This document shows positions 10,141 through 35,417 of a stretch of DNA of 64,000 bases, in pieces; the stretch's first letter is position 1; each line of letters opens with the position of its first letter. Source of the DNA: a virus. The notes beneath the pieces were generated by a model. It was not told the DNA's origin. It saw only the letters and a list, made by a program, of their open reading frames with translations, and ran no database searches. Both the position numbers and the translations under genes were made by a program. The stretch lies in IMG/VR virus record IMGVR_UViG_3300042402_002579, positions 1 to 64,000 of that record. One strand, given 5' to 3'.

Positions 10141-11700
10141 ATGCCTTTACAAATTCGCAGAGGAACCACCGCAGAAAGAATAACCATCAGGCCTGTCGTT
10201 GGTGAGCTAATCTACGACACAGATATCAAATCTGTATACGTTGGCGATAGTACTGACGGCGGCGTCACCGGAACATTAGGTGGAGTAGGAATTACAGTAT
10301 TTGGCGTTGAACAGGCACAAGACGCTGCGGCAGCTGCTCTTGCAGCTGGAACTCATAGCGGTATCAGTTTCACCTATGACGATGTTCTTAACAAAATAGA
10401 TGCAGTAGTAGGTGGCGGCACTGTTAATCTGGATATAAAAGGATCAGTTTTTAGCGATGACACTTCGGTTATACTGATTGACGGTGTGTTAGCTGCAATA
10501 AATCTAGATCAAACTATAAAAAGCAATGTCATACCTGCTGTTGACGTTACCTACGATCTAGGATCAGCCAGTAAAAGATTTAGAGATCTTTATCTAAGCG
10601 GCTCCAGTATTAAACTAGGCAATGCCACAATTACAGCTACAGGAACTGCTGTCAATTTACCCTTAGGATCTACTATAGGTGGATCTATAATCAGTTCAGG
10701 TGATGGCGTTATTAACGGATCTAATTACAATGTCAACATAATAGGCGATGACAGTAGCGTTATTGTCAATACCAGTAATAACGAAGTCACTGGAACATTT
10801 ACTGGCGACATTACCGGTTCCGTTTTTATGTCCGATAGTTCCGTGATAGTAGATTCCGTTGACGGAGTAGTTTATGCTACCACAATTGGACCTCACTACG
10901 GAAATGTATTTGGAAATGTGATCGGAGCCACCCAGGGTTTACATACCGGTAATGTAATCGGTAACGTAGTTGGCGATATCACTGGAACATTAACAGGCAA
11001 TCTAGTTGGTTCTATGTTTGGTTCTGTATTCAACGAAAGTAGTTCTATTATGGTTGATACAGACAATGATAGAATTATAGCTTCACAAGTTATAACTCCA
11101 ACAATAAGAAGCAGCACTAATGCATTGACCTTTAACTCTTCAGATACTACTACTGGATTGGAAGTAAATTTTTATGTAAGCCCTCTTAGTATGGATCTCT
11201 GGGGAATATCCAATGGTCCTCAGCAGGGCCCGGCGATTCAATTCAAAGCAAGTAGAGGTACATTTGCTGCTCCAACTGCCCTTCAATCACTAGACCTAAT
11301 AGGCGGAACACTAAGTTTTGGACATAACGGCACTGACTATAAATTAGCCAGTATAGTTGGTTCTTTCGTTGATCCTAACGGTTCTCTTACTGCGGGTGTG
11401 GTTCCGACTAAGATTTCTCTAACAACCTTCCCAACCAACGATCCGCTAAATCCAAAAAATCTAACGATGAATAGAAACGGGTATGTTTCTATTGGTTATG
11501 CCATTACCGATGATGCCGCTGCACATCTTGATATTAATGGTGCAATGAAATTAGCCCCATTGAGCACTGCACCAACTAGCCCAGTTTCAGGTATGTTAGC
11601 AGTTGCAGACGGAACTGGTTGGAACCCAACTTCGACAGGTAAACATACACTGGTTTGCTATCTAACTTCTGCCTGGGTTCAGGTTGCTGTAGCACCTTAA
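10141..11700 (+). CDS. Phage fibre / tropism-type virion protein (519 aa)
   Basis: The N-terminus (LQIRRGTTAERITIRPVVGE) matches the short N-terminal domain found in phage tropism-determinant and fibre proteins. The middle has repeated segments of the type DDSSVIVDxxxxxIxG and the block DLGSASKRFRDLYLSG, also present in the fibre gene at 55796. Thr/Ser/Gly/Val-rich composition and the low charge fit a beta-rich trimeric fibre. It has a late-type promoter with a normal leader. It is probably an adhesion fibre or accessory virion protein; its exact place on the particle is unknown. Confidence 0.8.
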   Translation: MPLQIRRGTTAERITIRPVVGELIYDTDIKSVYVGDSTDGGVTGTLGGVGITVFGVEQAQDAAAAALAAGTHSGISFTYDDVLNKIDAVVGGGTVNLDIKGSVFSDDTSVILIDGVLAAINLDQTIKSNVIPAVDVTYDLGSASKRFRDLYLSGSSIKLGNATITATGTAVNLPLGSTIGGSIISSGDGVINGSNYNVNIIGDDSSVIVNTSNNEVTGTFTGDITGSVFMSDSSVIVDSVDGVVYATTIGPHYGNVFGNVIGATQGLHTGNVIGNVVGDITGTLTGNLVGSMFGSVFNESSSIMVDTDNDRIIASQVITPTIRSSTNALTFNSSDTTTGLEVNFYVSPLSMDLWGISNGPQQGPAIQFKASRGTFAAPTALQSLDLIGGTLSFGHNGTDYKLASIVGSFVDPNGSLTAGVVPTKISLTTFPTNDPLNPKNLTMNRNGYVSIGYAITDDAAAHLDINGAMKLAPLSTAPTSPVSGMLAVADGTGWNPTSTGKHTLVCYLTSAWVQVAVAP

Positions 11701-12407
11701 ATTGTAGTAAGTACTCGATCAATAAACTCTGCAGGATAGCTGTTTCTAAAACTATTCCAGCAGAGTTTTTCCATAAGCGGCAACGGATGCGGATCGTTCC
11801 AACTTATTCCTAATTCTTCTACATACTTCTTCATCTCTCCCTGCCTAGTGCTGTATATGTGACTGGCATGATCTGCTATACTGATTGGCCCTTCGTGTTT
11901 AGCGTATGTGAAAAAGTAATTGATACTTTTAAGTTTGCCGTCTACTACAAAGTAACTGCTAGGATGCATACTGTACTTGTATAACCCTAACGAATGATGT
12001 GCTTTTATAATTGCTAACATTTGCTCCTGCCAATCTGGAAGTACATCGTTGTAATTTTCTTGATTGCACCCAGCTTGTTCCCAAAAATCAGGTCCATTAA
12101 CTTCTAAATAAATTTTTTGTTTTTCTAAATCTATATTCTTTATTACTGGAACTAGATTCGGATACCTATTTCTCATTTGGGTAAGATAGTTTACTTCACG
12201 TAACCATTTTTCCTGCATAAGCTCAGGGGCGACTATTTGATTTTGTCCCTTATGATAATTGCCCTCTGTTGTGTAGTGTTGTACAAACACTTTTTTATCA
12301 GCACTCATCAAACTGGTGTAAATAAGATTGTTCCGACACAGACCGTGTCCTGGAACATTGTTATAATAGTATTCGTACTCCATACAATTAATTATCAAAG
12401 ATCTCAT
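11697..12407 (-). CDS. Kinase-like-fold protein, probably lacking key residues
   Basis: The 236-aa protein has an order of elements recalling small-molecule or LPS kinases: a strand with VFVQHY, a helix with a Glu, a hinge-like IYLEVNG, then a helix and a HPSSYFVVDGKLKSIN block where kinases have the catalytic and metal-binding loops. The expected catalytic Asp and DFG are not clear, so it may be a pseudokinase or the resemblance may be superficial. The stop overlaps the fibre gene by four bases. An ATG at 12383 is an alternative start. A shorter relative is at 19152. Confidence 0.5.
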   Translation of the reverse strand: MRSLIINCMEYEYYYNNVPGHGLCRNNLIYTSLMSADKKVFVQHYTTEGNYHKGQNQIVAPELMQEKWLREVNYLTQMRNRYPNLVPVIKNIDLEKQKIYLEVNGPDFWEQAGCNQENYNDVLPDWQEQMLAIIKAHHSLGLYKYSMHPSSYFVVDGKLKSINYFFTYAKHEGPISIADHASHIYSTRQGEMKKYVEELGISWNDPHPLPLMEKLCWNSFRNSYPAEFIDRVLTTI

Positions 12408-12413
12408 ACAATA

Positions 12414-13460
12414 ATGATATATCCGAATAACATTTTTTCAGTACAGTTAGACCTAACCGATAAGTGTCAGGCCGCCTGCCCAATGTGCCCGAGAAATGAT
12501 CATGGGGGTATAGATATGCCTTACATTAAAAATATTGAGATGACTTTAGAAAATGTTAAACAATGGTTGACTTCAGAATGGATTAATACCATTAATTGTT
12601 TTTATGCTTGCGGAAACTATGGTGATCCCTTGATGGCAAAAGATTGTCTAGCAATTTTTGAACATCTTATGACTTATAGCAAATCAGATTGCCGATTCAA
12701 AATATACACTAATGGTAGTCTTAGATCAAACGATTTTTGGATTAAAGCTGCAAATTTGTTTAACACTAATAATTCCATCATATTTGCAATTGATGGTTTT
12801 AAAGGAGAACATGAACTTTATAGAAAAAATACCAACTGGGATAAAATTATTTCAAATGCAAAAATTTTTATAGAGCATGGAGGAAATGCTGAGGCAGATG
12901 TATTATTATTCAAACATAATGAAGACAGAATTTATGAATTAAAGTCTTTCTTATTAAGTATAGGTTTTAGTAAAGTAAACATTAAATACACAGAAAGATT
13001 TCTTGACAAGGAAAAATTTCCAGTAAAAAATAAATCCGGAGACATTGAGTATTATCTAGAGCCACCAACTTCTCAAAAAATAATTAAACACGATGTTACT
13101 ATTTTTAAAAATCTAACTGATATAATACAAAATTTTGATATAGTTCCTATGTGTCACGAAGAACTTTATATCAACGCAAACGGTGATGTTTTTCCTTGCT
13201 GTGCAGTTTCGACATGGTTAGATCATTCAGTTAATACCAATCCTGTCACGTTTGACGAGTTTACAAATTTACATCAGTTTGAGTCTGCCAATCTTGTTAT
13301 CAAAGACATCGGATACATTAATCTCAAAAATACAGATATAGCAACAGAATTGGCAAAGTCAAATTGGGAAAACATAACAAATCATCATACCACTGGCAAT
13401 AAAAGTTTAGTGTGTGCATCAAATTGTAGTCCGGGTTTTTTTGATAATTTTAAAAGCTAG
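12414..13460 (+). CDS. Radical SAM enzyme, SPASM-like (348 aa)
   Basis: C18-x3-C22-x2-C25 near the N-terminus (DKCQAACPMC) binds the [4Fe-4S] cluster that cleaves S-adenosylmethionine. A C-terminal set of Cys (VPMC, FPCC, then CASNC) resembles a SPASM-type auxiliary-cluster domain, found in enzymes that modify peptides or sugars. It is closely related to the gene at 32810 and more distantly to that at 22466. I start at the ATG at 12414; longer in-frame starts would read through the opposite-strand gene. Substrate unknown. Confidence 0.85.
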   Translation: MIYPNNIFSVQLDLTDKCQAACPMCPRNDHGGIDMPYIKNIEMTLENVKQWLTSEWINTINCFYACGNYGDPLMAKDCLAIFEHLMTYSKSDCRFKIYTNGSLRSNDFWIKAANLFNTNNSIIFAIDGFKGEHELYRKNTNWDKIISNAKIFIEHGGNAEADVLLFKHNEDRIYELKSFLLSIGFSKVNIKYTERFLDKEKFPVKNKSGDIEYYLEPPTSQKIIKHDVTIFKNLTDIIQNFDIVPMCHEELYINANGDVFPCCAVSTWLDHSVNTNPVTFDEFTNLHQFESANLVIKDIGYINLKNTDIATELAKSNWENITNHHTTGNKSLVCASNCSPGFFDNFKS

Positions 13461-13482: not shown

Positions 13483-14286
13483 ATGATAATTGGCATAAAC
13501 AACGTTCCATATTATGATATGGAACAATATTTAGACATGGCAGCATTTGAAAAAATGCAACCTGAGATCTTACAAGGGTTTTCACTATCACGAGATTGTG
13601 CCAAAGAAGGTACCTGGATGACTCCGGGTTTTACCTTTGAACAAATGAGTTACATTCCCCATTGGAAACCTATATACCAAGCAATGCAAGAATTTATGTC
13701 GATGCCAGCTACTGATCCTATTAAAGCAGCAGGTCTTGAACTAATGCCTAAAGACTTCAAAGACTTTAAACAACGTAACTTGTTTACTCGATACATTAAA
13801 ATGGCTATGGGTGCCTATGATCCATACATTTATTATTACCTATGGGAAGAAGGTTCCTGGGATGATCGTACTGCTCCACGCAAGCTGACTCCGGAAGCAG
13901 AATATTTTCCCACAGTAGTTAAGTGGGTTGAAAGTCTAGTAGGTACAGTGTTCAAAGACATCGGCCGTGTCATATTCTTCCATTGTGAAGCAGATGGTAT
14001 TCCATTCGAACATCGAGACCTAGATGCTAAGAACGGAATGAATCAGTCATTCCCCCATCGAAATGAATTTATACACATCCGTCCTAATACTAAAAAAGCA
14101 TTTTACATTTGGGATCCTGAAAAGAAAAACAAAGTGTATCTTAACACAAGAGCAGCCTGGTGGAATGATCAAGATTGGCACGGCGGCGAAAGAATTATGG
14201 AACAAAGTTATAGCCTTAGAATTGACGGAAAGTTTACAGAAGAGTTTCGTAAAAAATTAGGAATTGAACACATTGAAACCTATTGA
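13483..14286 (+). CDS. 2OG-Fe(II) oxygenase / AspH-like protein (267 aa)
   Basis: H177-R-D179 and H233 can form the iron triad and R246 lies where 2-oxoglutarate is usually bound, inside a strand-rich C-terminal half (residues 160-250). The N-terminal 150 residues are a helical extension without motifs. It opens a run of three overlapping oxygenase-like genes (13483, 14264, 14896), overlapping the next by 23 bases. A late-type octamer sits five bases before the ATG. The substrate is unknown. Confidence 0.65.
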   Translation: MIIGINNVPYYDMEQYLDMAAFEKMQPEILQGFSLSRDCAKEGTWMTPGFTFEQMSYIPHWKPIYQAMQEFMSMPATDPIKAAGLELMPKDFKDFKQRNLFTRYIKMAMGAYDPYIYYYLWEEGSWDDRTAPRKLTPEAEYFPTVVKWVESLVGTVFKDIGRVIFFHCEADGIPFEHRDLDAKNGMNQSFPHRNEFIHIRPNTKKAFYIWDPEKKNKVYLNTRAAWWNDQDWHGGERIMEQSYSLRIDGKFTEEFRKKLGIEHIETY

Positions 14287-14899
14287 AGAGTTATATCATA
14301 AATTACAAGTATATGCAGATTTAGAAGAGGCCCGCGAATACTATACTATTATCAAAACAAACTTTGCAGATCAACGCTGGAGTGTTTACAAACATGCAGA
14401 ACGTCTTACTAAAGAAGCATGGTACGGATTTGAAGATGTAGATTACGCTGTTGCTCCCGGCGGTTGGGCATTGCAAACACATCTAGAAACTGACGATGTT
14501 TGTGCTCCGTGGATTGTTGATACATATAATCCAGTACACCGAGCCCATAATCCAATGATATTTGGTTTTGCTGAAAAATTATTAAAGAAAATTCCAATAG
14601 CCAAGTGGTTAAGCATTAGCGAAACTCCGGCCGGAGGAGGCATTGTATCTCATCAAGATAGTCATTGGCACATACACTTGCCATTGTATAGTCCAGAGAA
14701 AAGTTTCCTTACATGGGATAATGAAAATAAAGAACCCGTGCATTGGAAACATTTTCCATCAGACGGCAGTATCTATGCCTGGAATACAACTGAACAACAT
14801 ACTGTGCTTAACAAGAGTGATGATCTAAGAGTGCATTTATTTTTTAAAGTAGAAATTAAAGATGTTCCAGAGCTGTTAAAAATTTCAGGAAAAATATGA
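14264..14899 (+). CDS. 2OG-Fe(II) oxygenase-like protein (211 aa)
   Basis: H130-Q-D132, H179 and R189 fit the HxD...H...R pattern, with the beta-strand pairs HWHIHLPLY and VHLFFKV around them, as in aspartyl/asparaginyl hydroxylase-type domains. No ATG is available near the start; TTG at 14264 (or 14276) is the best choice and lies inside the preceding gene, so translation is probably coupled. It overlaps the next gene by four bases. Confidence 0.65.
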   Translation: MNTLKPIEELYHKLQVYADLEEAREYYTIIKTNFADQRWSVYKHAERLTKEAWYGFEDVDYAVAPGGWALQTHLETDDVCAPWIVDTYNPVHRAHNPMIFGFAEKLLKKIPIAKWLSISETPAGGGIVSHQDSHWHIHLPLYSPEKSFLTWDNENKEPVHWKHFPSDGSIYAWNTTEQHTVLNKSDDLRVHLFFKVEIKDVPELLKISGKI

Positions 14900-15672
14900 G
14901 CAACCCACCTCCAGTGATGTATAAGGATCAACCAGGTTTTGATTATTGTCTAGAAGTTTTCAAGGCCTGGAATGAGCATCAAAGTCTAGACTTTGACACA
15001 GCACGTATATCCATGATGCGTAATAATCATAATACAACTACAGCAGAAGACTTTCTTAGTAACAAAGAGTTTAAAGAATTAATAGGCTACATAGTAGACA
15101 ATCCAACATGGCACCTGTTCTGGGAAGGCGGCAGCGCATTAGCAAACGTCAATCCAGAGTTTCCTAACTACGATAAGATAATGGCACTTACTGTAGATAA
15201 GATTAAAGCTAAACGTGGAGACTTTCTAATTGACAATATGTTTATTAGACGTGCTGTTAATAGTTTGCCGTTGCACACAGATCATGTTTACAACTGGCCA
15301 GACAGGGTACCTTCATTTACTTACGTTATTCCATTAGCAGTAGAACGTAACGGTTCATTTAGTGATGATTGGAGTGGAGTCAGTACTGTGATGTTCGAAC
15401 AATATCAATATCGCAGAGCCTACGGCGCAGACGTATTTGATGTAGAATTAAAAACAGGCGATCCGTTCCCTCAAGAAGATTATGCCAATGTTAGTCAGCA
15501 CACAAGTGAAGAATTATTTGGTCTTAGTTTAGAAACAGTATTCCCTTGGAAACAAGGATCTATGATTACTATGGACGCTTATAGATTGCATTGCAGTAAT
15601 AATTGGAGTCAATATGGCATCGATGCTAAATGGGGGTTAATTATTCAAAGTGCCAAGTTATTAAACACGTAA
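14896..15672 (+). CDS. 2OG-Fe(II) oxygenase-like protein (258 aa)
   Basis: H127-T-D129 in LPLHTDH and a distal H232 in YRLHCSNNW give the iron triad; a basic residue near 245 may replace the usual 2-oxoglutarate Arg. It is third in a row of overlapping oxygenase-like genes and ends convergent with an SGNH gene, overlapping it by 28 bases. The family is inferred from the HxD...H spacing and beta-rich context rather than from a specific match. Confidence 0.6.
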   Translation: MSNPPPVMYKDQPGFDYCLEVFKAWNEHQSLDFDTARISMMRNNHNTTTAEDFLSNKEFKELIGYIVDNPTWHLFWEGGSALANVNPEFPNYDKIMALTVDKIKAKRGDFLIDNMFIRRAVNSLPLHTDHVYNWPDRVPSFTYVIPLAVERNGSFSDDWSGVSTVMFEQYQYRRAYGADVFDVELKTGDPFPQEDYANVSQHTSEELFGLSLETVFPWKQGSMITMDAYRLHCSNNWSQYGIDAKWGLIIQSAKLLNT

Positions 15673-16397
15673 TGAGCAAAATTTTCTTGAGCTATTTTAT
15701 CAAAATGGCCAAATGGTTGACGCTTATAGTTTCTATCTAGACAAAATTGGTAATACGACCCGTAGCCTTGATTTTGGTCATTGTCAATTTTTAAAATTTT
15801 TTTACCAACTATATCTAACATATTTTTGTAGTTTGATGATATTAGATTGTTTGAACCTAAAATTTGTATATATTCACTAGCATAATTTTTACACACACTG
15901 TCTACATAAAACATTTGATTTAAAATTTTCTCATTATTATTATTTTCAATTTGTAAAAATTCTTCAACATATATATTGTTAATAGGCAATTGATTTTTAA
16001 ATCTTGAATCTTGATACCATTGCATTCCTAATTGAAGATATAAATCCTTATCTCTTGCAAACACAAAAGAATCTTTAGGGTAATAGATTTCTGTTCTATC
16101 AGAGTGTGTCCAACCAAAAATTACAAGACTATTGGGGTGTTCTAATAATTTATTTGGAAGTAGTCTTAAACTTCGGTCGTTACTGCCACCACTCATTGCA
16201 AAATTGTAAACGGGGATATTTAATAATTTACCTAGAACTGAAGAAAATGCATATTCTTTGTATATGTTATCAATTTCTTCAATTGATATTTGAGAAAGAT
16301 AGTATTGATCAATTAATTTGTCAACTCCTGGAATTGATTCAGCCCCGGCAAAATGACTATCACCAAACACTATTATTGAACTAATTTTTTTGGTCAT
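15645..16397 (-). CDS. SGNH/GDSL-like hydrolase family protein (250 aa)
   Basis: GDSH at 12-15 is a block I motif with Ser14, and NFAMSGGSNDRSLR near residue 70 resembles blocks II/III. It lacks a signal peptide. The ATG at 16397 overlaps the TGA of the upstream oxygenase-like gene (ATGA); a TTG four codons earlier is less likely. With the neighbouring oxygenase and unknown genes it forms a minus-strand operon starting at 19124. Confidence 0.65.
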   Translation of the reverse strand: MTKKISSIIVFGDSHFAGAESIPGVDKLIDQYYLSQISIEEIDNIYKEYAFSSVLGKLLNIPVYNFAMSGGSNDRSLRLLPNKLLEHPNSLVIFGWTHSDRTEIYYPKDSFVFARDKDLYLQLGMQWYQDSRFKNQLPINNIYVEEFLQIENNNNEKILNQMFYVDSVCKNYASEYIQILGSNNLISSNYKNMLDIVGKKILKIDNDQNQGYGSYYQFCLDRNYKRQPFGHFDKIAQENFAHYVFNNLAL

Positions 16398-16933
16398 TGA
16401 GATCCCCAATAGTTAAACATATATTTGTCAGTTAATCCACCGTTCATTCCACAGTGCCAGTCATCATATGTCGGCCACTGATAAACTGAACCACGAGCAG
16501 GACGATACACAGCACTTTCCCCCACAATACTAATGTGTCCGTGTTGCGGTTCTTGTATATAACAAGTATACCGCACCAAGTTCCCCTGCTTTCTAAATTC
16601 ATCAATATTCTGGTGCGCATCATAATGCCAAGGAGCCATACGGCCTGGACGTATTTTACTAATCCAGGCCATTAGTGGTGTTGCTTGTACAATGTTTTGA
16701 AATGTATCAATAACATCTTTACCAAAATCTTCTTTAAAATAATTGGTCCACTCGATCATAGAATCGTTATGTGAGTATCCTGCCTGTTGCCACATTTTAT
16801 CTAATGTTGCAAACTCTGGAGTGTTAGGGAAACACCCGTAGTTATACTGCATAGTGACACCGTTACAAGACTTGCACTTGTCAACTACTACATCCCAGTC
16901 GATTAGATTGCCTGTATTAGTTATTAAGTTCAT
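16394..16933 (-). CDS. 2OG-Fe(II) oxygenase-like protein (179 aa)
   Basis: H103-Y-D105 and H160 (YDDWHCG) can form the iron triad in a compact domain; the usual Arg is replaced by a Lys around 170. The N-terminal third is helical with three Cys. It overlaps the 167-aa gene upstream by 17 bases and the SGNH gene downstream by four, so all three should be translated together. Confidence 0.6.
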   Translation of the reverse strand: MNLITNTGNLIDWDVVVDKCKSCNGVTMQYNYGCFPNTPEFATLDKMWQQAGYSHNDSMIEWTNYFKEDFGKDVIDTFQNIVQATPLMAWISKIRPGRMAPWHYDAHQNIDEFRKQGNLVRYTCYIQEPQHGHISIVGESAVYRPARGSVYQWPTYDDWHCGMNGGLTDKYMFNYWGSQ

Positions 16934-17420
16934 AATTAAATTTTTTTGTTTTCCGTAATATACTGTTAAAAACTATCACAGGTAACTTGTGAGTAAATGC
17001 TATACTTAATATGTTCCATCCATGTGGTTTGTGTTCATAGTGTTTTATCCTTGTTCCAGGACGCACCCACCACGGAGTATAGTCGTCGTGATAATTTTCA
17101 TCACTGCGTTCAGGACTTGGTTGTTGGTGCGGAGAATGAAATGCCTGTTGCCCAATAACTGGGCAACCTATTTCTTTATAAATTTTTAAGTTAATTACGT
17201 AACATTGAGTATGCAATTCGTAATAGGCATTTATGTTTTCTCTATCTAATATATGTCCCATAATAAAAAAATTATGTTTACTAATTTCTTCAACAAATTT
17301 ATCTCTATCTAAAAACTCGTGACCTTTTCGGTATACTATAGCATAGTCGTATTCTTCCACAACTAATTGTAGCTGACTATCTTCGGTTGAGTCGTTAACT
17401 AAAATGTCAATTGTCTTCAT
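16917..17420 (-). CDS. Hypothetical protein (167 aa)
   Basis: I do not recognise a named family. The N-terminal half shows alternating strands and helices with an IMGHILDR...YYELHTQCYVINL stretch that resembles a Rossmann/GT-A-like core seen in marine-phage proteins of unknown role. There is no DxD or P-loop. It overlaps the 360-aa gene by 14 bases and the oxygenase-like gene by 17, pointing to a shared pathway with them. Confidence 0.65.
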   Translation of the reverse strand: MKTIDILVNDSTEDSQLQLVVEEYDYAIVYRKGHEFLDRDKFVEEISKHNFFIMGHILDRENINAYYELHTQCYVINLKIYKEIGCPVIGQQAFHSPHQQPSPERSDENYHDDYTPWWVRPGTRIKHYEHKPHGWNILSIAFTHKLPVIVFNSILRKTKKFNYELNN

Positions 17421-18489
17421 GCCAGGTAGGTAATTTTAGTTGAGTATTGACATTAAATTCGTTAATGTGTCCTGCAAATTTTGAATCTTGATAATATATA
17501 GCTGCTGCTCTAGAAATAAACCCAACATGACAATTATAATCTTTTAGCTCAGTTAATATGCGTTGTTCTGCACGTATTCGAGATTGCAAACTATAGAAAC
17601 AACTAGTTAGGTAGTAACTAAAGATGTTGCTAAAATTAATGAATGTATTTGGTACAGGTTTAACTAATTCTGTAATATCTAATTTTTCTAACAAGTTGAT
17701 GTGAACAAATTCAAAACGTACGGTATTAACAATCTTAATCCAATTGTCTGGCTCAACTACAGAATACATACTGGCAAATCCGTAATCCCATTCTTTATCA
17801 ATAAATTTAAACTTGCTTCGGCCTAGACGTCTAATAAATTCTTCATAATCACCGCCATTGTATTTTAACACAACTTCTCGCATACAGTCCAATGCTAGGT
17901 AACTATAATCGTAAAATCTAACAACGGTAGTTTCGTCATACCCGTATTTGTTCAAGTAGTTAACCCAATTAAGTCCTGCTGCTGGAGTTACCAGTTGATG
18001 GATAATCGGCAAATCTAGCGTTTGCACTTGTTCATTATTAACCGGATAAAAAAACGAACCATGCCCAAGACTAAATTTTTTGTTTTGCCATTCTAGTCCC
18101 TGTTCAAATGAATCTTCAGATCGACCGTCCAAATAAAATATATTTTGAGCCAACTCTATCTTATCTGCTTTATGTAAAACAATATCACCTACTAGATCTC
18201 TTAAGTTTATTATTTGAAAATGATCAGTTGGTTCAATAACAACCACTCCGGCATCTAACACATCAATACCAGTCGGTACTATTATTGCCGTTTTAAAAAA
18301 TGCACGAGCAAATTCTAACATTTCGTTTAGATTTTTACTTGCTATAACAAAATATTTTTCACTAAACTTAAATAGAGTCTGATCACTAACGTTCTTAACC
18401 AGCTGCCTTGCAGAAGGAATACACTGATCTATTTCATCTAATATACAAACTACTACATCACTGTCTGTTTGGTTTCCGTACTGTATCAA
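17407..18489 (-). CDS. Hypothetical protein (360 aa)
   Basis: An alpha/beta protein I cannot assign. Residues 10-100 alternate hydrophobic strands and helices (VVVCILDEID, YFVIASKN, TAIIVPTGIDVLDAG) like a nucleotide- or sugar-binding Rossmann fold. A strand LAQNIFYLDGRSED and a C-terminal helical part follow. No catalytic motif is convincing. It shares overlaps with the AspH-like gene upstream (four bases) and the 167-aa gene downstream, so it is part of the same minus-strand operon. Confidence 0.65.
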   Translation of the reverse strand: MIQYGNQTDSDVVVCILDEIDQCIPSARQLVKNVSDQTLFKFSEKYFVIASKNLNEMLEFARAFFKTAIIVPTGIDVLDAGVVVIEPTDHFQIINLRDLVGDIVLHKADKIELAQNIFYLDGRSEDSFEQGLEWQNKKFSLGHGSFFYPVNNEQVQTLDLPIIHQLVTPAAGLNWVNYLNKYGYDETTVVRFYDYSYLALDCMREVVLKYNGGDYEEFIRRLGRSKFKFIDKEWDYGFASMYSVVEPDNWIKIVNTVRFEFVHINLLEKLDITELVKPVPNTFINFSNIFSYYLTSCFYSLQSRIRAEQRILTELKDYNCHVGFISRAAAIYYQDSKFAGHINEFNVNTQLKLPTWHEDN

Positions 18490-25822: not shown

Positions 25823-25860
25823 ATAGTAATTATGTAAATATTCCACTAGGGAGATAGTTT

Positions 25861-27841: not shown

Positions 27842-28714
27842 CGGAATGTCTGCTGCACAAGTACACCAATCTCTAGTACACTCAATAGACTGCTGCGGTA
27901 CTGAAAAAGTATCTTGATAGATATTGCCAAGACTACCACCGACTCTGCAAGTGGCTCTGTGTACATCTCCGTCCCAGTTGATCATTAGACTTTCTATACC
28001 TGCGTTACACTGCCAACCTTTAAATTGATTTAGGTGTTGTTTAATTACATCGTTGGCATGAATAATTTGTTCGTCGTCTATACGACAATTTGGTGTAACT
28101 GTGGCATCTTTGTTTAGAATCCATTCTAAATCTCTACCTTCATACTTTAAATCGTCAAATACATTATGGTCGCCTTCGGTCCAACGTATTCTACGAATTG
28201 CATATTTGATGCCAAGCTCGTCAAACTTTTTAACAACTGTTTTTACGTTATGCATATGTTTGTGATGTGCCATAACATTCACAAAGAAATCTCGATCAGT
28301 CTCATCGTAAAATTTCATAATGGTATCAAATATTCTAGTCCACTCTTGTTCAAAGTGTAGACTAAAAACAAGATGATTAAAAAACATTTCATTTTGTAAA
28401 TACCATCTATATCCTCTAGTTCCGTTAGTTGTTAGATTAACCCAGAATATATCTTTGCGTTTAAAATATTCTAATAGAGATTCTATATCTGGATGTATAC
28501 AAGGTTCGCCTCCTGTAAGACTGATACGTAAAGGCTTGCCTATTTCGCAGAGACGATCCACTGCTCTTTCTAGAATGTTTATATCGGTATGAGGACTAAA
28601 ATTATCGTGTATAGCACTAGGGCAATAGGTACAGTCGTAATTACATCGTTTACCCAAGTTCCATTCTATTTTAAGTTGATCTTGATGCGGCCAAACGCTG
28701 GTTACTTTATACAT
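27797..28714 (-). CDS. Radical SAM enzyme (305 aa)
   Basis: C24-x3-C28-x2-C31 (KRCNYDCTYC) is followed by SLTGGEPCIHPD, the glycine-rich SAM-binding loop, and a TTNGT strand. Four to seven Cys in the last 90 residues (CNAGIES, ATCRV, CTRDWCTC) suggest one auxiliary cluster. It pairs with the gene at 34443, which has the same layout. It overlaps the N-twitch radical SAM gene upstream by eight bases and the desaturase at its 3' end by 45. QueE-like activity was considered but length and extra Cys argue against it. Confidence 0.85.
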   Translation of the reverse strand: MYKVTSVWPHQDQLKIEWNLGKRCNYDCTYCPSAIHDNFSPHTDINILERAVDRLCEIGKPLRISLTGGEPCIHPDIESLLEYFKRKDIFWVNLTTNGTRGYRWYLQNEMFFNHLVFSLHFEQEWTRIFDTIMKFYDETDRDFFVNVMAHHKHMHNVKTVVKKFDELGIKYAIRRIRWTEGDHNVFDDLKYEGRDLEWILNKDATVTPNCRIDDEQIIHANDVIKQHLNQFKGWQCNAGIESLMINWDGDVHRATCRVGGSLGNIYQDTFSVPQQSIECTRDWCTCAADIPLTKINPDQVNNPSH

Positions 28715-29972
28715 ATTTTTTAAATTCCGGAGTTACTGCTGTAAAACTCTGTGTTCTAGTTGAATCTAGTCTTCTATTGAACTCAACACAATCTTCCCAA
28801 CGATGGCTTTGATCTCTAGCGGTAAGATAGTTTATGTTATCTTGTATTTGATCCAGTGTATATTTTAACAACTGAGGATATTGCTTTACCAGTTTAAAAT
28901 TTGGAACTTGAGATTTTATATTTTCTAATCTTTCTAGAGCAAGATCTAACAAAGGTCTAGGCAACACTTGAGCAGACAATTCTCGAGGAAATTCAACTCT
29001 ATGAGAATGGAACACGATACCTAAGTCATTTAAAAAATATTCAATAATTTTATCTAATACTAACACATTGCTAACCTGCACAGTGACAGCTCCAACAATT
29101 CGACTGATATTAGGTATAGACTGTATCTGTTTAATGTTGTTTATCAGTTCGAGCCAACTAGCATTACCGCGAATATATTCGTAACTGCTGTCAATGCCAT
29201 CAATACTTACATTAACAGCAACACTTTTAAACTTAGGCCAATACTCCCAAACTGTACGATTGCTCTTTCCTAACATACTCAAGTTGGTTGCATATTTAAT
29301 TTCTATATTAGAACCATAGGGAGCAAGCATATCTAATATGCGATAATGCTGCGGGTCCATCAATGGCTCACCGCCAGCAAATTCTACACGACGAAAGTAA
29401 GGTAACAATTTTTCTAAACTGGACCACCACTCAGGATTATCTTGAAACTTATCAAGAAAAGGTTTATTCTTTAAATTATTTTCTTCAACTAAATGAAATA
29501 TAATGTTGTTGTCTTTTTTATAAAATTCTTCCACTTGATCCCAATCGTTCCAACTGGTGCTGTCTCCGGGATGACACATACGACATTTTAAGTTACAGAG
29601 ATTATTAAGTTTGAGTTCGATTGTGGGAATTTCAAAAGGCATAGAATAGTCTTCTTGTAGTTTATTCAATGCGTCGGGGTATAGATTTATTCTTGCTTCT
29701 GGAATTCTGGCTTCAACGTGTCGCTGTCGTAGACTGACCACTCCTTGATCTTCGAGATTAAAACAAGGTTCACACTCTGCAGGTCTTTCGTCATTTAATA
29801 CCTGCTTACGAATACGCTTCATCGTGTCGTTATTCCAAATTTCTTCTAGAGATTCTTTATCAACAAAGCCAACTGGATGACTACGACAACAGGCCTTAAT
29901 GGCACCATCTTCTCTGGTAGCTAACCCTGTAAAAGGGTGCATACAAAATGTTTTACTTTTTTTAAGGACCAT
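28707..29972 (-). CDS. Radical SAM enzyme with N-terminal twitch-type cluster domain
   Basis: N-terminal Cys (C10, C28-C29, C67, C70) form the twitch-like domain; the radical SAM motif is C126-x3-C130-x2-C133, followed by AGGEPLMDPQH. It is a paralogue of 19711 and 30011. It is transcribed divergently from 30011, and the two start regions are mirror images of each other. Only four bases (TTTC) separate the late octamer from the ATG. Confidence 0.88.
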   Translation of the reverse strand: MVLKKSKTFCMHPFTGLATREDGAIKACCRSHPVGFVDKESLEEIWNNDTMKRIRKQVLNDERPAECEPCFNLEDQGVVSLRQRHVEARIPEARINLYPDALNKLQEDYSMPFEIPTIELKLNNLCNLKCRMCHPGDSTSWNDWDQVEEFYKKDNNIIFHLVEENNLKNKPFLDKFQDNPEWWSSLEKLLPYFRRVEFAGGEPLMDPQHYRILDMLAPYGSNIEIKYATNLSMLGKSNRTVWEYWPKFKSVAVNVSIDGIDSSYEYIRGNASWLELINNIKQIQSIPNISRIVGAVTVQVSNVLVLDKIIEYFLNDLGIVFHSHRVEFPRELSAQVLPRPLLDLALERLENIKSQVPNFKLVKQYPQLLKYTLDQIQDNINYLTARDQSHRWEDCVEFNRRLDSTRTQSFTAVTPEFKKYV

Positions 29973-29976: not shown

Positions 29977-29984
29977 TATTTAAC
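29977..29984 (-). promoter_or_regulatory. T4-late-type promoter octamer GTTAAATA
   Basis: Minus strand GTTAAATA, TTTC, ATG (29972). The 13 bases from TAAATA to the ATG are identical to those of the divergent gene at 30011. Confidence 0.65.
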
Positions 29985-29998
29985 CTATAAAGTGTACA

Positions 29999-30006
29999 TA
30001 TAAATA
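29999..30006 (+). promoter_or_regulatory. T4-late-type promoter TATAAATA (exact consensus)
   Basis: TATAAATA, TTTC, ATG at 30011. Exact T4 late consensus, four bases before the start codon. Confidence 0.75.
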
Positions 30007-30010: not shown

Positions 30011-31435
30011 ATGCCCAACAAAAACAAAATATTCTGGCTGCAATCAGAAGAAACTCAGCTAGGAAAATGGCAGAAGCAAATAGTCGACGTATCCGGAAGC
30101 CCTAGTTTTTGTGTACTACCTTGGATCCATATGGCTACTCGTCCAAACGGAGATATGCGAGTATGTTGTGTGGCCAATGCTAGCGGAGCAAGTGACGGCG
30201 ACTACACAGTTGGTCTTGTTAAGAAAGAAAACGGACAACCTGCTAACTTTGGAAAAGATCTTCCTAGCCAGGCATTTAATAATGATTATATGCGTAGCAT
30301 TAGACAAACCATGCTGGAAGGAAAAGCTCCGGCAAGTTGTAAGAAATGTTACGAAGAAGAAAGCTCAGGTGTAGTTAGTAAGCGCATTTGGGAAACTGGT
30401 ACATGGGATAAAAAAGGCATTGACATACCTGCACTCATTGCGCAAACAACTGAAGAAGGGCATATTCCTTACAAATTACAATACATAGATTTACGTCTAG
30501 GACACACTTGCAATTTAAAATGTATAATGTGCAGTCCTCATGACAGTAGTAAGTGGGTTGAGGATCATAAAAAAGTATATCCACTATTTCAAAGTCCGCT
30601 AATTAAAAAACAATTAAGCTGGAAACAGAATAGTTTTAACAATCATTGGCACGAAAACCCAGCGTTCTGGGAAGAGATCTACGAACAAATTCCCAACATC
30701 AAACAGGTATATTTTGCTGGTGGCGAACCACTGATGATTAAAGAGCATAAGATATTCCTACAGGAAATTATAAATCGAGGTTATGCTAACAAAATAGAAC
30801 TTCGTTATAACAGCAATGGAATTTTGATTGACGAAACTATCGTCGAAATATGGAAACAGTTTCGCAAAGTCAAATACGGACTCAGCATAGACGGAATGGG
30901 CGACAGATTGCATTACATTCGCTTTCCAACTGATTGGAATACCATTGTGAAAAATTTGCACATACTAGATAATGCTCCGGATAATATTGAAACTACTATT
31001 GCCTGTGCTGTACAGATATTGAATATCAAGCACATTCCAGACTTTATCAAATGGAAGCTGACTCAGGGATTTAAGAAGATCAATCTGAATGAAAACATTG
31101 TTGGCGAAACACATAGTGGGGGCATATTCAGCGCACACCTAGTATGGATTCCAACCTGGCTAAGTTTAAAGGTATTGCCCAAAGAAGATAAAAAAGAAGT
31201 ACGAAGACTGTTTGAAGAATTAAAAATATGGCTGTGGGAAAATCACACTCAAGACGCTGACTTTTGGGAAGTGAACTCTTATGGTTGGAAACGCTGGGAA
31301 GGACTTTTAAATTGGATGGACAGTGAGGATCACACTAATTTACTACCTGACTTCCAAGAATATATTACAACAATGGACACACAACGTAAGACAGACTTTA
31401 AACAGACGTTTCCTGAATTAGCTCATTTGCTTTAA
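30011..31435 (+). CDS. Radical SAM enzyme with N-terminal twitch-type cluster domain (474 aa)
   Basis: The largest of the three N-twitch paralogues. C34, C52-C53, C110 and C113 precede the radical SAM motif C167-x3-C171-x2-C174, and AGGEPLMIKEH follows. A 30-residue N-terminal extension and a Trp-rich C-terminal region distinguish it. The mRNA is predicted to be leaderless from an exact TATAAATA. Its 3' end overlaps the PP-loop ATPase gene by 38 bases on the other strand. Confidence 0.88.
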   Translation: MPNKNKIFWLQSEETQLGKWQKQIVDVSGSPSFCVLPWIHMATRPNGDMRVCCVANASGASDGDYTVGLVKKENGQPANFGKDLPSQAFNNDYMRSIRQTMLEGKAPASCKKCYEEESSGVVSKRIWETGTWDKKGIDIPALIAQTTEEGHIPYKLQYIDLRLGHTCNLKCIMCSPHDSSKWVEDHKKVYPLFQSPLIKKQLSWKQNSFNNHWHENPAFWEEIYEQIPNIKQVYFAGGEPLMIKEHKIFLQEIINRGYANKIELRYNSNGILIDETIVEIWKQFRKVKYGLSIDGMGDRLHYIRFPTDWNTIVKNLHILDNAPDNIETTIACAVQILNIKHIPDFIKWKLTQGFKKINLNENIVGETHSGGIFSAHLVWIPTWLSLKVLPKEDKKEVRRLFEELKIWLWENHTQDADFWEVNSYGWKRWEGLLNWMDSEDHTNLLPDFQEYITTMDTQRKTDFKQTFPELAHLL

Positions 31436-32141
31436 GAGCCCACTCTCGTTCTTTACACCAAAAACATTCATTACAAACAGGAACATATTGTCCTTGTTTG
31501 TAGTTTTGATAATTTATTTCAGTGAACTTTCCCTCACAACTTCTTGTAATGTTAAACAGGTCGATAAGATTTAACTCCACATAAGTTTTTACTATCTCGG
31601 ATTTGTCAACAAATCTAAAAGGATGAAATGCCCAACGCCCCATATGTTGCATTGCTTCGAGATGTCCGTTGTTTTCATTCTTTTCAATACTGCGTTCAAG
31701 CATACCGTTAAAATTTTCTACTCGAGGATTTCGGGTCACTCCGTTGTAGTAGGCATCGATGTTGTGTTTATTGCAGATAAATTCTGCATAAGCCCGTTGT
31801 TGTATGTTGTCACCACTTACTAGTTTACCGTATTCATCTGTTAAACAAGGACCAATATTTCCGTATTCTAGTTCCGGTGCAATAAAGTTTATATGTCTCT
31901 CAAATGTAATATTTGAAAATTTCTTAGTCATCCAATTATAGATTCTTTCAGAATCGTACTGTTGCCAAGGTTTGGTTTTCCAGCATCTTATGTGACTGAT
32001 AACGTGAATCTTGATGTGTTCTGCTTTTTGAATCGTAATGTTATTACATAACAAATAACAAAGCAATGCGCTATCAGCACCACCACTCATACTAATAGCG
32101 ACACTGTTCCATTTTGCATCAAAGGGTATATTTAGACTCAT
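31398..32141 (-). CDS. PP-loop ATPase, QueC-like
   Basis: SGGADS at 19-24 is the ATP-pyrophosphatase P-loop. The distal segment with ITRSCEG and VCNECFWCKERE has the Cys spacing of the zinc site of QueC (7-cyano-7-deazaguanine synthase) and its relatives. Such enzymes adenylate a carboxylate or amide to make an amide or nitrile. At 247 aa the length fits. The ATG at 32141 is preferred to one ten codons earlier because a late octamer lies five bases upstream of it. A QueD-like gene is present at 43147. Confidence 0.78.
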   Translation of the reverse strand: MSLNIPFDAKWNSVAISMSGGADSALLCYLLCNNITIQKAEHIKIHVISHIRCWKTKPWQQYDSERIYNWMTKKFSNITFERHINFIAPELEYGNIGPCLTDEYGKLVSGDNIQQRAYAEFICNKHNIDAYYNGVTRNPRVENFNGMLERSIEKNENNGHLEAMQHMGRWAFHPFRFVDKSEIVKTYVELNLIDLFNITRSCEGKFTEINYQNYKQGQYVPVCNECFWCKEREWALKANELIQETSV

Positions 32142-32146: not shown

Positions 32147-32154
32147 TATTTAAT
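32147..32154 (-). promoter_or_regulatory. T4-late-type promoter octamer ATTAAATA overlapping the divergent start codon
   Basis: ATTAAATA on the minus strand, five bases before ATG 32141. Its first bases cover the start codon of the plus-strand gene at 32153. Confidence 0.65.
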
Positions 32155-32833
32155 GTTAAAACTTTTGCCAAATAAATTTTCTATAGAACCCATAATAGAT
32201 CAAGTTTCTTTGCTGGGTTCTTTTAAAAGGTTAGATCTCAACGATTCCACGGGAGAGTTTTTTAATGATCCGTGGGAAGTAAAACCAGAATTTAAAAGAA
32301 CACCCCTAGGTGATGTTCTCGATTCTTTAGGAGCTATCGGTCAGGCAAGATTGCTGTGTTTAGAATCAAGAGAAACTTATACTGCTCATTGCGATCCAGA
32401 TGACAGAATCCATCTTGCAATAGTTACCAATCCTTACTCATTCTTAGTTAATATATCTGATAATCAAATGTATCATTTACCAGCAGACGGACAACTATGG
32501 CATATGAATACTGACTTTGTCCATGTTGCTGTAAACTGGGGCCCAAGAACACGTATTCATTTAAATGTAAGAGTGCTATTACCTAAATATACTGACAAAC
32601 AAAAAGGACTACGCATAAAGGTAGTTAGCGGAGACTACGATTGGAAACAGTTAGCATATACTCCAATTATGGGCACTGTTAACAAGTATATTAAGAACGG
32701 TTATATTACTGGCTTCAAAGGAATCAGTGAAAAAGAAATACTCGTAAATACTGATTTTCCGTCAATATTCGACGAAGCATTCATTCAGATTAAAAATGCC
32801 GGGATTACTTTAGAGATCGTACAGTTGACTTGA
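32153..32833 (+). CDS. AspH-type 2OG-Fe(II) oxygenase (226 aa)
   Basis: H79-C-D81, H124 in NTDFVHVAVNWG and R134 in RTRIHLNVRV match the iron and 2-oxoglutarate residues of aspartyl/asparaginyl hydroxylase-like enzymes, with the family Trp (W116) ahead of the distal His. The C-terminal 80 residues are an extra domain without motif. It starts within the interlocked divergent promoter at 32139-32155 and ends overlapping a radical SAM gene by 24 bases. Confidence 0.78.
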   Translation: MLKLLPNKFSIEPIIDQVSLLGSFKRLDLNDSTGEFFNDPWEVKPEFKRTPLGDVLDSLGAIGQARLLCLESRETYTAHCDPDDRIHLAIVTNPYSFLVNISDNQMYHLPADGQLWHMNTDFVHVAVNWGPRTRIHLNVRVLLPKYTDKQKGLRIKVVSGDYDWKQLAYTPIMGTVNKYIKNGYITGFKGISEKEILVNTDFPSIFDEAFIQIKNAGITLEIVQLT

Positions 32834-33859
32834 ACAAGATTTAACACAGGTCATACACTTGTTCTCACCTTGCCAATAACTTTCTAACTCTTTCCATAGT
32901 CCATCTTGCCCTAACATTTCTTCAATGTTGTTAATGTGCAAATTGGGCACTCCGATAGCTTGCATCATTTCCTTAGAATTATTTACTGTTATGTTGCGTA
33001 GTGTATGCAACAATAGTTTTTCTTCTAACGGTTGTTCTAACCAGTCACTACCAATGTAACAACAAGGCAACACATTGCCGTGAGGATCAACATAAATTTC
33101 TTGTTTAGTTACACATTGCGGTTTAATAATTGATTCCGATACTATTTTTTTAAAAAATTTATTATCTAAAAAATTCTCTAAGGGTATTTTTACTTCTTGT
33201 TTAAAACGTGAAGTTTCTGCAGGATATAAATCATATTCGTATTCATCTGATCGATCGAATACAGGAAATGCTGTCATATTGTAAAAGCGTTTAGTGCTTT
33301 TGAAGTTTACACTATGTACACCAATATCCAGTAAAAACTTTTCTAGTTCATCCACTTCGTGTTCATTATGTTTAAACACTAAACTGTCTACCCTAGCAAG
33401 CCCGCCCGCACTAACATAGGCTTTGATATTTTCTATGATCTTATCAAAGTCTGTATTGCGTCTGTATAATTCGTGTTTTCCTTTGAATCCATCTACAGCA
33501 AAAACAACTTCTCCATTCTTTCCCATCACAGTGGCAAGGTCCTTCCACCAAGTAGTTTTACGCAAACTACCATTGGTGTGAATTGCTAATCGTGCATTGG
33601 GACTTGAATTTCGAACGTGTTCGTATATGTCAAAACAGTCTGTAGCAAATACAGGATCTCCATAATTACCACAACTGTAAAAATTATTTACACCTGATAA
33701 AAAAGAAACAGGGAACCATTGTTTAAAGTTTGCAAATGTGATCTCTGTATTTTTAATAAAGGGACGTTCACTCCCACCGCTATGATTACGAGCACACATA
33801 GGACAGGCGGCCTGGCATTTATCAGTTAACTCAATATGTATAGCAGAGATAGGATACAT
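32810..33859 (-). CDS. Radical SAM enzyme, SPASM-like (349 aa)
   Basis: C15-x3-C19-x2-C22 in DKCQAACPMC, C-terminal VLPCC and CMTCVKSC for an auxiliary cluster. It shares long stretches with the gene at 12414 (same ELTDKCQAACPMC-type start and FAVDGFKGKHELYR block), so the two are recent paralogues about 20 kb apart. Its start touches the stop of the methyltransferase gene, giving a three-gene operon from 35417. Confidence 0.86.
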   Translation of the reverse strand: MYPISAIHIELTDKCQAACPMCARNHSGGSERPFIKNTEITFANFKQWFPVSFLSGVNNFYSCGNYGDPVFATDCFDIYEHVRNSSPNARLAIHTNGSLRKTTWWKDLATVMGKNGEVVFAVDGFKGKHELYRRNTDFDKIIENIKAYVSAGGLARVDSLVFKHNEHEVDELEKFLLDIGVHSVNFKSTKRFYNMTAFPVFDRSDEYEYDLYPAETSRFKQEVKIPLENFLDNKFFKKIVSESIIKPQCVTKQEIYVDPHGNVLPCCYIGSDWLEQPLEEKLLLHTLRNITVNNSKEMMQAIGVPNLHINNIEEMLGQDGLWKELESYWQGENKCMTCVKSCSSQLYDL

Positions 33860-34452
33860 TATTTTTTACCAATAATCATAAATCTTTTATACAAAGGTAA
33901 ATCTAATTCTCCAGCATAGCATATCTTTTCTAACTGAGATTGAGATTTAAATTCTTCTAAATCTTGAGCAATTCTTATGTGTTCTGGTATCTGGTAGTTG
34001 TTAGATTGTAAAACAATTAGACTATCCATTCTAAGACCTCCTAGCCATAGATCATAATCGTCTTGAGATACGTGTTCAAAACTGGTGTTAATCACAACGT
34101 CTGCGTCGGACCTAATACTACACATATCAGCAGTTACGGCACAGAATCGACCTGCTATTTCTTCTATCTTGTTCATATTAACAGCAATAGACTCGCAGCT
34201 AGAATCAATATCGACACTACGAATGTTTATTATAGGTAGGTCACTTTGAAATAGCATACTAGCTAACACTCCTACCCACCCACCGTGAATGTCTATGGTA
34301 ACAAACTTGTTGACATTATTGCGTAGATTTGTAATCAGCCACTCTTTGCTTTTAAGTTGGCCACTCCAAAATGCATCCATAGTACGCATAGGATCAGGAC
34401 TTTGACGGATGGCCTGCATCCAGTGGTGTAGGTGTTCGGTATCTATTTGCAT
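33859..34452 (-). CDS. SAM-dependent methyltransferase-like protein (197 aa)
   Basis: A class I methyltransferase pattern: strand and loop FVTIDIHGGWVG (motif I position), RSVDIDSSCE (motif II), and ADVVINTSFEH (motif IV region). The glycine motif is degenerate (DIHGGWVG) but fits the fold. I start at ATG 34452, whose first bases overlap the TAG of the upstream radical SAM gene, rather than 11 codons earlier. Flanking radical SAM genes on both sides suggest the same pathway. Confidence 0.72.
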   Translation of the reverse strand: MQIDTEHLHHWMQAIRQSPDPMRTMDAFWSGQLKSKEWLITNLRNNVNKFVTIDIHGGWVGVLASMLFQSDLPIINIRSVDIDSSCESIAVNMNKIEEIAGRFCAVTADMCSIRSDADVVINTSFEHVSQDDYDLWLGGLRMDSLIVLQSNNYQIPEHIRIAQDLEEFKSQSQLEKICYAGELDLPLYKRFMIIGKK

Positions 34453-35417
34453 TTTGGTATTTTGCTGTCTGCCGAACTCACGCAACTAGGAGTAATACAG
34501 CGAGTAGGTTCCTTGAATAATTCAAAGCTGTCTAATGTGCCTAATGGAACATCGTGACAACTGTAACTGCGTTTGACTTCATTGCCTCTTATTATAACAC
34601 TTTGATATCCAGCATTGCAAGACCAGTTAGTGAATTTATTGAAACCAAATGCATTAAATCTTTCAGCCTGATCAAATAAGTGTTCAGTACCGTCTGCTTC
34701 GTACAGAGCAATTTGATAAGCATCTTCACCGTTAGCACGTTGCGGAAATCCCGTCTGCATCTTGTTTATCATATCTTCAGTATAGCCCGCAACAACTGCA
34801 CTCGCCGTTGGATTGCTTTGCGGCTTCAATGTAACATTAATGCCTCGTTCGTGGAAACGTTCCATTCGGTCATACAGTTCATAAAACTTTTCTGGCACCA
34901 TTACTTGATTGATTGTAACGTGTACCAGTTCATATTGTAACTGTAGGCACTTATCGCCAAACTCTTGTTCCTTGGCAAACTCGTCGTGGAAACTGGCAGT
35001 AATACTCCTACGCTGTAATAATGCAGTATTGGCACACCAAGTGTTCCACCATTTGCTACCTGGACTCAGATTGGTTGTCATATGAATACTTTGGTAAGGA
35101 CTTTCGGTTTCGTCCAGGTGTTTTATTAATTCTGGTAACTGTTTGTATGCAGTAGGTTCACCGCCGCTGAACGACCAATGGAACTGGTTAAATCCGTTGG
35201 CTCGTGCTTGACGCTTAATTTCGTTTACTGTAGATTTATATACTTCAAGTGATTGGTGATCCAATTTGTCACTGCGAGCATAAGGCCAACAGTAGCTACA
35301 ATTATAATTACAAAATCTGCCTAGAATCCAACTGGTAGAAAATAATGGATTGGCTAGCATAGTACGTTGTCCAAAACGCACAATGTGTTCGAATGGAATT
35401 GATTTAAAATTTTGCAT
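34443..35417 (-). CDS. Radical SAM enzyme (324 aa)
   Basis: C36-x3-C40-x2-C43 (RFCNYNCSYCW), SFSGGEPTAYKQL, and TTNLS define the core; C-terminal CNAGYQS, YSCHD and CITPSCVSS resemble the auxiliary Cys set of the 27797 protein. It leads the operon with the methyltransferase and the SPASM-like enzyme. A GTTAAATA octamer lies 12 bases before the ATG, a longer spacing than for its neighbours. Confidence 0.86.
   Translation of the reverse strand: MQNFKSIPFEHIVRFGQRTMLANPLFSTSWILGRFCNYNCSYCWPYARSDKLDHQSLEVYKSTVNEIKRQARANGFNQFHWSFSGGEPTAYKQLPELIKHLDETESPYQSIHMTTNLSPGSKWWNTWCANTALLQRRSITASFHDEFAKEQEFGDKCLQLQYELVHVTINQVMVPEKFYELYDRMERFHERGINVTLKPQSNPTASAVVAGYTEDMINKMQTGFPQRANGEDAYQIALYEADGTEHLFDQAERFNAFGFNKFTNWSCNAGYQSVIIRGNEVKRSYSCHDVPLGTLDSFELFKEPTRCITPSCVSSADSKIPKCK

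Follow-up and report, generated by a model that had tools for sequence, protein, structure and literature searches.

The window analysed here, a 64,000-nucleotide stretch of DNA (positions 1 to 64,000 of the IMG/VR virus record IMGVR_UViG_3300042402_002579), contains a discrete genomic island of radical S-adenosylmethionine (SAM) enzymes and partner genes, cleanly inserted at a fixed site in a phage genome. The island occupies positions 11697-35417, between a fibre gene (10141-11700) and a tRNA-like RNA (TRL), and comprises 27 genes with 12 strand switches. It is 99.4% coding, its largest internal gap is 39 bp, and its divergent genes lie 6-39 bp apart. A five-gene core is conserved among related phages, and a counterpart of the island is present in predatory bacteria of the class Bdellovibrionia. 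The island may encode a late-expressed pathway for an unusual, heavily modified sugar or glycoconjugate of the virion or the infected-cell envelope, a reading given a probability of roughly 0.4.

Radical SAM enzymes of the island

A PF04055 search of the entire 65,936-bp record returns ten radical SAM domains and no more. All of them exceed the curated cut-off and fall between 12.4 and 35.4 kb, and the CX3CX2C motif is kept in each of the ten proteins. An earlier model-made annotation from the letters and open reading frames (the sequence-only reading) had counted ten such proteins within 11697-35417, and its coordinates match the island edges. Its four architectures hold to differing degrees. 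The three proteins called N-twitch (19711, 28707, and 30011) are full-length matches to NF033640 and the only ones of the ten to exceed its cut-off of 170 bits. NF033640 defines an architecture without specifying a reaction, and the island contains three diverged copies beside other radical SAM types. The two short proteins (27797 and 34443) are MoaA/STM4011-like with C-terminal cysteines. The two proteins described as B12-type (20908 and 24323) resemble B12/radical SAM families but fall below the family cut-offs; for the B12-binding domain PF02310, 24323 scores 23 bits against a cut-off of 32.1, and no match is listed for 20908. The three SPASM-like proteins (12414, 22466, and 32810) have the expected cysteine pattern, but their NCBIfam matches are weak. 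A scan of viral contigs with the 20908 protein gave no matches.

Conservation among phages

A scan with the 30011 protein (RsTW3) identified 74 viral loci, and all 50 records searched carry between 4 and 23 radical SAM domains. The phage records of this lineage are all metagenomic, and many are fragments. Gene presence was counted in the 19 loci that have about 10 kb of sequence at both ends. The methyltransferase-like protein MT and the radical SAM proteins RsSH1 and RsTW2 are found in all 19, RsSH2 in 18, the oxygenase-like protein OX1 in 16, the PP-loop ATPase in 15, and kinA in 11-14. The five core genes (RsSH1, RsSH2, RsTW2, RsTW3, and MT) are each present in 18-19 of these relatives. The order RsSH2-(RsSP)-MT-(RsSP)-RsTW3-RsSH1-RsTW2-PP-loop-AspH-...-OX1-kinA recurs and is largely kept; since RsSP is a paralogous family, orthology within it is uncertain. 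Variable genes encode SGNH and AspH proteins, a pyridoxal phosphate (PLP)-dependent-looking protein (by eye), UDP-glucose and GDP-mannose dehydrogenases, a Trp-halogenase, an S-adenosylmethionine (AdoMet) decarboxylase, and a class III aminotransferase. Gene-neighbourhood comparison, one of the checks proposed in the sequence-only reading, shows that the core set travels as a unit and the remainder varies.

The core proteins have diverged to approximately 50-60% identity while the surrounding gene content turned over. Phage RsSH2 is represented by about 103 distinct sequences. A tree was built from 37 of them and 17 bacterial rows; 35 phage rows fall into a single, fully supported clade that is deeply divergent, and the remaining two (L078 and L080) cluster with the RsSH2 of a Rickettsiales metagenome-assembled genome (MAG). 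Radical SAM enzymes are oxygen-sensitive iron-sulphur proteins that consume costly SAM, and they are expensive for a virus, yet they have been retained for a long time, which argues for selection for their product.

Insertion at a fixed site

Empty and filled forms of the insertion site are both present in related viral contigs. In L107, TRL lies about 60 bp past the end of the homologue of the 10141 fibre gene with no cassette between them, followed by a 63-aa histone-like gene, a homologue of 35851, and ThyX; the arrangement in L174 is the same. In G070 (281,658 bp), the cassette is located at approximately 230-262 kb between flanks that match those of the window. One flank contains tail proteins, IscA, IscU, UvsE, KdsA, PTPS, and ThyX, and the other contains homologues of 10141, 9443, 3762, and 1963. 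The clean single-site insertion and the joint travel of the core in relatives agree with the earlier description of a coherent cluster, not scattered auxiliary genes. The additional genes that it noted at 3206-6325 fall outside the island, and one relative has a 3762 homologue in its flanking backbone. A second copy of the 3′ part of TRL, as an attachment-site repeat, was looked for in the window and not found.

With a conserved five-gene core, an empty site, and a bacterial counterpart, what would otherwise be a loose account of "auxiliary genes" becomes a defined pathway open to reconstitution.

A counterpart in Bdellovibrionia

The bacterial counterpart came to light when genomes were scanned with MT and then searched with the RsSH2 profile. 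Near-full-length RsSH2 orthologues are present in 15 of 144 Bdellovibrionia genomes, with E-values below approximately 1e-157. On Bdellovibrionia contigs of 936, 494, 243, and 200 kb, RsSH2, RsSP, and RsTW3 occur together in most cases. MT and a glycosyltransferase-like protein are each found in several loci, and SGNH, AspH, or PLP-like proteins in some. The core is orthologous to that of the phages (RsSH2 47-52%, RsTW3 47-49%, and MT 31-36% identical), whereas the locus is smaller, is located on long bacterial contigs, and in most cases has no evident orthologues of RsSH1 and RsTW2. The predicted structure of a recurrent partner (pLDDT 89) matches GT-A glycosyltransferases and sugar nucleotidyltransferases (Foldseek E 6e-5, TM 0.3-0.45). 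MT homologues in Rhizobiales (34-40% identical) were discarded as functional evidence, as the stretches fetched contain no radical SAM neighbours.

Promoter-like motif

On both strands, the sequence TAAATAYT tends to precede transcription units, usually at a distance of 10-12 nt from the first codon. Of its 17 hits, eight fall in the 35 nt upstream of a start, where 0.28 would be expected; sites include 29982-30006, 23547, 19134-19142, and 13472. A related form of the motif precedes RsSH2 (22/46), AspH3 (16/22), PP-loop (8/29), and RsTW3 (17/71) genes in relatives, against a background of 5%. The strict T4 late consensus TATAAATA has two matches only, which is fewer than chance. TAAATAYT resembles the T4 late promoter core, which suggests late expression from T4-late-type promoters that would yield nearly leaderless mRNAs with very short leaders. 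For the PP-loop gene, the start of the promoter-like motif 12 nt upstream of the ATG at 32141 favours this codon over the TTG at 32171.

Proposed function

The island would encode a single biosynthetic pathway, of a type that Bdellovibrionia chromosomes also carry. RsSH1, RsSH2, RsTW2, RsTW3, and MT, usually with another SPASM-type radical SAM protein, would carry out its constant chemistry. The product would be varied between phages by changing oxygenases, SGNH hydrolases, desaturases, aminotransferases, nucleotide-sugar dehydrogenases, and glycosyltransferases. The enzymes would probably be made late in infection, and the glycan would probably decorate the virion, for example its tail fibres, or the envelope of the infected cell; late timing slightly favours the virion.

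A glycan product is proposed because glycosyltransferase or nucleotide-sugar genes are neighbours of the radical SAM genes in relatives, in Vibrio phage K566, and in Campylobacter phage CP220. UDP-glucose and GDP-mannose dehydrogenases adjoin the core in related phage cassettes, and nucleotide-sugar and glycosyltransferase genes are within the cluster in some relatives and, in part, in Bdellovibrionia. The KdsA gene in the backbone of this phage adds a further link to glycans. SPASM and twitch radical SAM enzymes such as BtrN and NeoN act on sugars or aminocyclitols. Among the substrates listed in the sequence-only reading, the evidence thus leans toward a surface glycan, short of proof.

Several observations weigh against this proposal. 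Within the island of the window itself, no glycosyltransferase or nucleotide-sugar gene is recognised; such genes are in relatives or in the backbone. The halogenase, AdoMet decarboxylase, and class III aminotransferase of relatives fit a small molecule equally well. Late timing is read from the motif alone, and the GT-A assignment of the Bdellovibrionia partner comes from a predicted structure with low TM-scores. The backbone gene for KdsA (KDO-8-phosphate synthase; full, 413 bits; 43696-44517 (+)) was considered as a partner of the island and rejected, as the association is weak. At its backbone place some relatives have the gene and others do not, with 11 of 16 island-carrying records and 4 of 14 island-less records positive in a hand count of related and partly fragmentary records.

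A broader claim is tentative: the island, widespread in jumbo phages, might make radical-functionalised glycans or glycoconjugates of a new class by a pathway shared with Bdellovibrionia, with swappable tailoring and a phage-specific surface structure. If so, each phage would wear or impose its own surface structure.

Alternative products and targets

The island may instead make a diffusible small molecule in the infected cell, for example for host manipulation or competitor exclusion, with the variable enzymes diversifying this natural product. The mix of radical SAM, 2-oxoglutarate (2OG), and tailoring enzymes looks like a biosynthetic gene cluster, and one sister clade has the Trp-halogenase, AdoMet decarboxylase, class III aminotransferase, and an amidinotransferase (by eye). 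The best fold matches of MT are natural-product O-methyltransferases and nicotianamine synthase. Nonetheless, the Pfam and PHROG matches of the island include no nonribosomal peptide synthetase, polyketide synthase, other backbone-building enzyme, or exporter, and the Bdellovibrionia counterpart is pared down to radical SAM proteins, MT, and often a glycosyltransferase-like protein. A slow product would presumably be of little gain to a lytic phage. This alternative is considered rather doubtful.

Modification of a protein or peptide, such as a tail fibre or other structural protein, by enzymes resembling maturases of ribosomally synthesised and post-translationally modified peptides (RiPPs) is a slightly poorer candidate. 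SPASM and twitch radical SAM proteins and AspH hydroxylases commonly act on peptides, there are weak AlbA/StsB matches, and the island is adjacent to the 10141 fibre gene and a few kb from other tail genes. However, the largest gap of 39 bp leaves no room for a precursor within the island, in keeping with the sequence-only reading, which had found no obvious precursor peptide; a RiPP cluster was rejected as first choice on this ground, although a precursor encoded at a distance is conceivable. The small protein adjacent to TRL is also present in an island-less phage and hence belongs to the backbone. Pfam, NCBIfam, and PHROG scans detect no RiPP recognition-type domain, and the bacterial counterparts have no obvious common small open reading frame (by eye).

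Modification of a host membrane lipid or lipid A is improbable. The desaturase (27065), the SGNH and SDR genes, the closeness of the B12-type radical SAM proteins to ladderane and hopanoid families, and a PagP-annotated gene among the radical SAM genes of K566 would all fit. The desaturase and B12-type proteins are accessory and missing in many relatives, though; the core contains no lipid enzyme, and the lipid-family matches are far under their family cut-offs.

A role in modifying phage DNA or the adjacent TRL is the least probable. In its favour, enzymes of the radical SAM, PP-loop (TilS/QueC-like), and methyltransferase types are known from other systems to act on bases of tRNA or DNA, genes for PTPS (43147) and ThyX (36370) lie close by, and TRL abuts RsSH2 in most loci. 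Against it, TRL is kept in island-less phages and missing from a whole island-carrying clade, bacterial carriers retain the core, and no core gene exceeds the cut-off of a known base-modification family.

Other phage systems

The statement in the sequence-only reading that no phage system of this kind had been described does not stand, as radical SAM modules of Campylobacter phages were published in 2010. CP220 and CPt10 encode 11 and 12 radical SAM proteins (Timms et al. 2010, PMC2853527), including an interchangeable five-radical-SAM module with an amidinotransferase that was termed highly unusual (PMC2853527). PF04055 matches number 11 in CP220, 11 in CP21, and 6 in K566. The Campylobacter phages CP220, CPt10, and CP21 (Firehammervirus) are T4-like too, and their five-radical-SAM block differs wholesale between close relatives. 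The module and the island are both interchangeable multi-radical-SAM blocks in T4-like phages, as empty and filled sites show for the island. In CP220, the radical SAM genes are alongside two proteins with nucleotide-sugar-transferase domains.

The systems nevertheless differ in content. Among the radical SAM proteins tested, those of the Campylobacter phages are only 22-24% identical to RsSH2 and RsSP3, with no match to RsTW2. The five-gene core of the island was not found in them, and no 2OG/SGNH set is annotated in the stretch of CP220 examined. The cultured jumbo Vibrio phage K566/K567 has N-twitch-like radical SAM genes interleaved with genes resembling glycosyltransferases; the identity to RsTW3 is 24%, and an RsSH2 orthologue was not found. 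Multi-radical-SAM blocks in phages are a kind already known. The present lineage, its conserved core, oxygenase-rich content, fixed site, and bacterial counterpart appear undescribed in the literature searched, and they suggest that the Campylobacter-phage modules are part of a wider pattern.

Oxygenases and partner genes

Six 2OG-type oxygenases in the island remain plausible, as three (14264, 18486, and 32153) pass PF05118 and three (13483, 14896, and 16394) have the HxD...H motif only. For 16394, a similar oxygenase-like phage family has a weak PF05118 match. The assignment of the desaturase is solid; the AlphaFold2 model of MT (pLDDT 89.6) has a class I methyltransferase fold, with fold matches in the PDB to class I methyltransferases and nicotianamine synthase, and a PDB search by sequence gave no match. 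The short-chain dehydrogenase/reductase (SDR) has weak NCBIfam matches only, and the PP-loop ATPase has a weak match but an SGGAD motif. Pfam detects no SGNH protein in the window, although GDS and GCS motifs are present in 15645 and 23576. The label "kinase-like" for 11697 and 19152 found no backing in Pfam or PHROGs. In an alignment of 11697 the usual catalytic Asp positions are absent, and it would be degenerate if it has a kinase fold.

Table 1. Genes of the island and the flanking tRNA-like RNA, in order along the window
Feature	Coordinates	Strand	Basis
kinA, conserved; "kinase-like" in the sequence-only reading	11697..12407	-	
SPASM-like radical SAM	12414..13460	+	PF04055 35 bits
OX1, conserved 2OG-like	13483..14286	+	HRD...H; no Pfam match
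AspH-type 2OG oxygenase	14264..14899	+	PF05118 31 bits
2OG-oxygenase-like	14896..15672	+	HTD, motif only
SGNH-like hydrolase (by eye)	15645..16409	-	GDS motif
2OG-oxygenase-like	16394..16933	-	HYD...H, motif only in window; family in most relatives
167-aa protein	16917..17420	-	no match
360-aa protein	17407..18489	-	no match
AspH-type 2OG oxygenase	18486..19124	-	PF05118 55 bits
"Kinase-like" in the sequence-only reading	19152..19724	+	by eye only; no Pfam/PHROG match
N-twitch radical SAM	19711..20967	+	NF033640 282 bits
B12-type radical SAM	20908..22473	-	PF04055 65 bits; TIGR04072 61 bits, below cut-off
SPASM-like radical SAM	22466..23536	-	PF04055 37 bits
SGNH-like hydrolase (by eye)	23576..24346	+	GCS motif; no Pfam match
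B12-type radical SAM	24323..25846	-	PF04055 46.5 bits; PF02310 weak; TIGR04072 52 bits, below cut-off
SDR-like oxidoreductase	25861..26454	+	weak NCBIfam SDR matches
205-aa protein, possibly acyltransferase (by eye)	26451..27068	+	no Pfam/PHROG match
Fatty-acid-desaturase family protein	27065..27841	+	PF00487 69 bits
RsSH1, core short radical SAM	27797..28714	-	PF04055 51 bits; 19/19 relatives
RsTW2, core N-twitch radical SAM	28707..29972	-	NF033640 335 bits; also PF13186 and PF04055
RsTW3, core N-twitch radical SAM	30011..31435	+	NF033640 405 bits
PP-loop ATPase (TilS/QueC-like)	31398..32141	-	SGGAD motif; 15/19 relatives
AspH-type 2OG oxygenase	32153..32833	+	PF05118 24.9 bits, over cut-off
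RsSP3, SPASM-like radical SAM	32810..33859	-	PF04055 34 bits
MT, core class I methyltransferase-like	33859..34485	-	19/19 full-flank relatives
RsSH2, core short radical SAM	34443..35417	-	PF04055 47 bits; orthologues in phages and Bdellovibrionia
TRL, flanking marker of island boundary, not exclusive to island	35483..35593	+	covariation

The tRNA-like RNA

TRL has a 7-bp acceptor stem, in which five pairs are doubly compensated across relatives, a Leu-like D-arm (by eye), a long variable arm, a normal T-arm, and an encoded CCA. A variable hairpin takes the place of the anticodon arm and has a UUCG cap in several relatives. It is a new RNA, absent from Rfam, with no tRNA match at E<=1, and ARAGORN makes no call. 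A TTGACA/TATAAT-like promoter is directly upstream. A covariance model and a pattern scan place TRL in at least 119 viral loci; it adjoins RsSH2 in 88 of the 113 loci with room and is also found without the island. TRL was rejected as a component or carrier of the island and assigned to the backbone because it is kept in island-less phages and absent from a whole island-carrying clade. A 63-aa histone-H1-like protein (by eye; 35657-35848 (+)) adjoins it and is present also in an island-less phage.

Phage genome and backbone genes

The T4-type capsid protein of G070 scores 328 bits to Gp23 and is 67-72% identical to those of PA5oct, Phosso, and GAP32, and its terminase is 54% identical to that of PA5oct. 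Because G070 shares its backbone, the window is, judged by these proteins, part of a T4-like jumbo phage whose nearest cultured relatives are PA5oct and Phosso. Its metagenomic relatives are presumably mostly from fresh and estuarine water.

An AMP-binding (adenylate-forming) enzyme below the Pfam cut-off is encoded outside the island at 7533-8987 (-), and in L169 a protein resembling adenylate-forming enzymes (by eye) is found at the island site. The highest count of radical SAM domains, 23, belongs to the 242.6-kb viral record L074, in which ClpP- and ClpS-like genes (by eye) adjoin the cluster. The 335-kb contig L281 (GenBank PBPT01000016.1), filed under a Neomarinimicrobiota MAG, has its own radical SAM/2OG cluster. 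It was rejected as a bacterial example, as it appears to carry T4-type terminase and capsid genes, and is probably a misbinned jumbo phage.

Phage IscU (185 bits) and an A-type iron-sulphur carrier (by eye) are encoded at 47200-47900 (+). IscU was rejected as a co-travelling iron-sulphur supplier, since island-less records have IscU too. In G003 and G004, a stop splits the IscU reading frame into two pieces.

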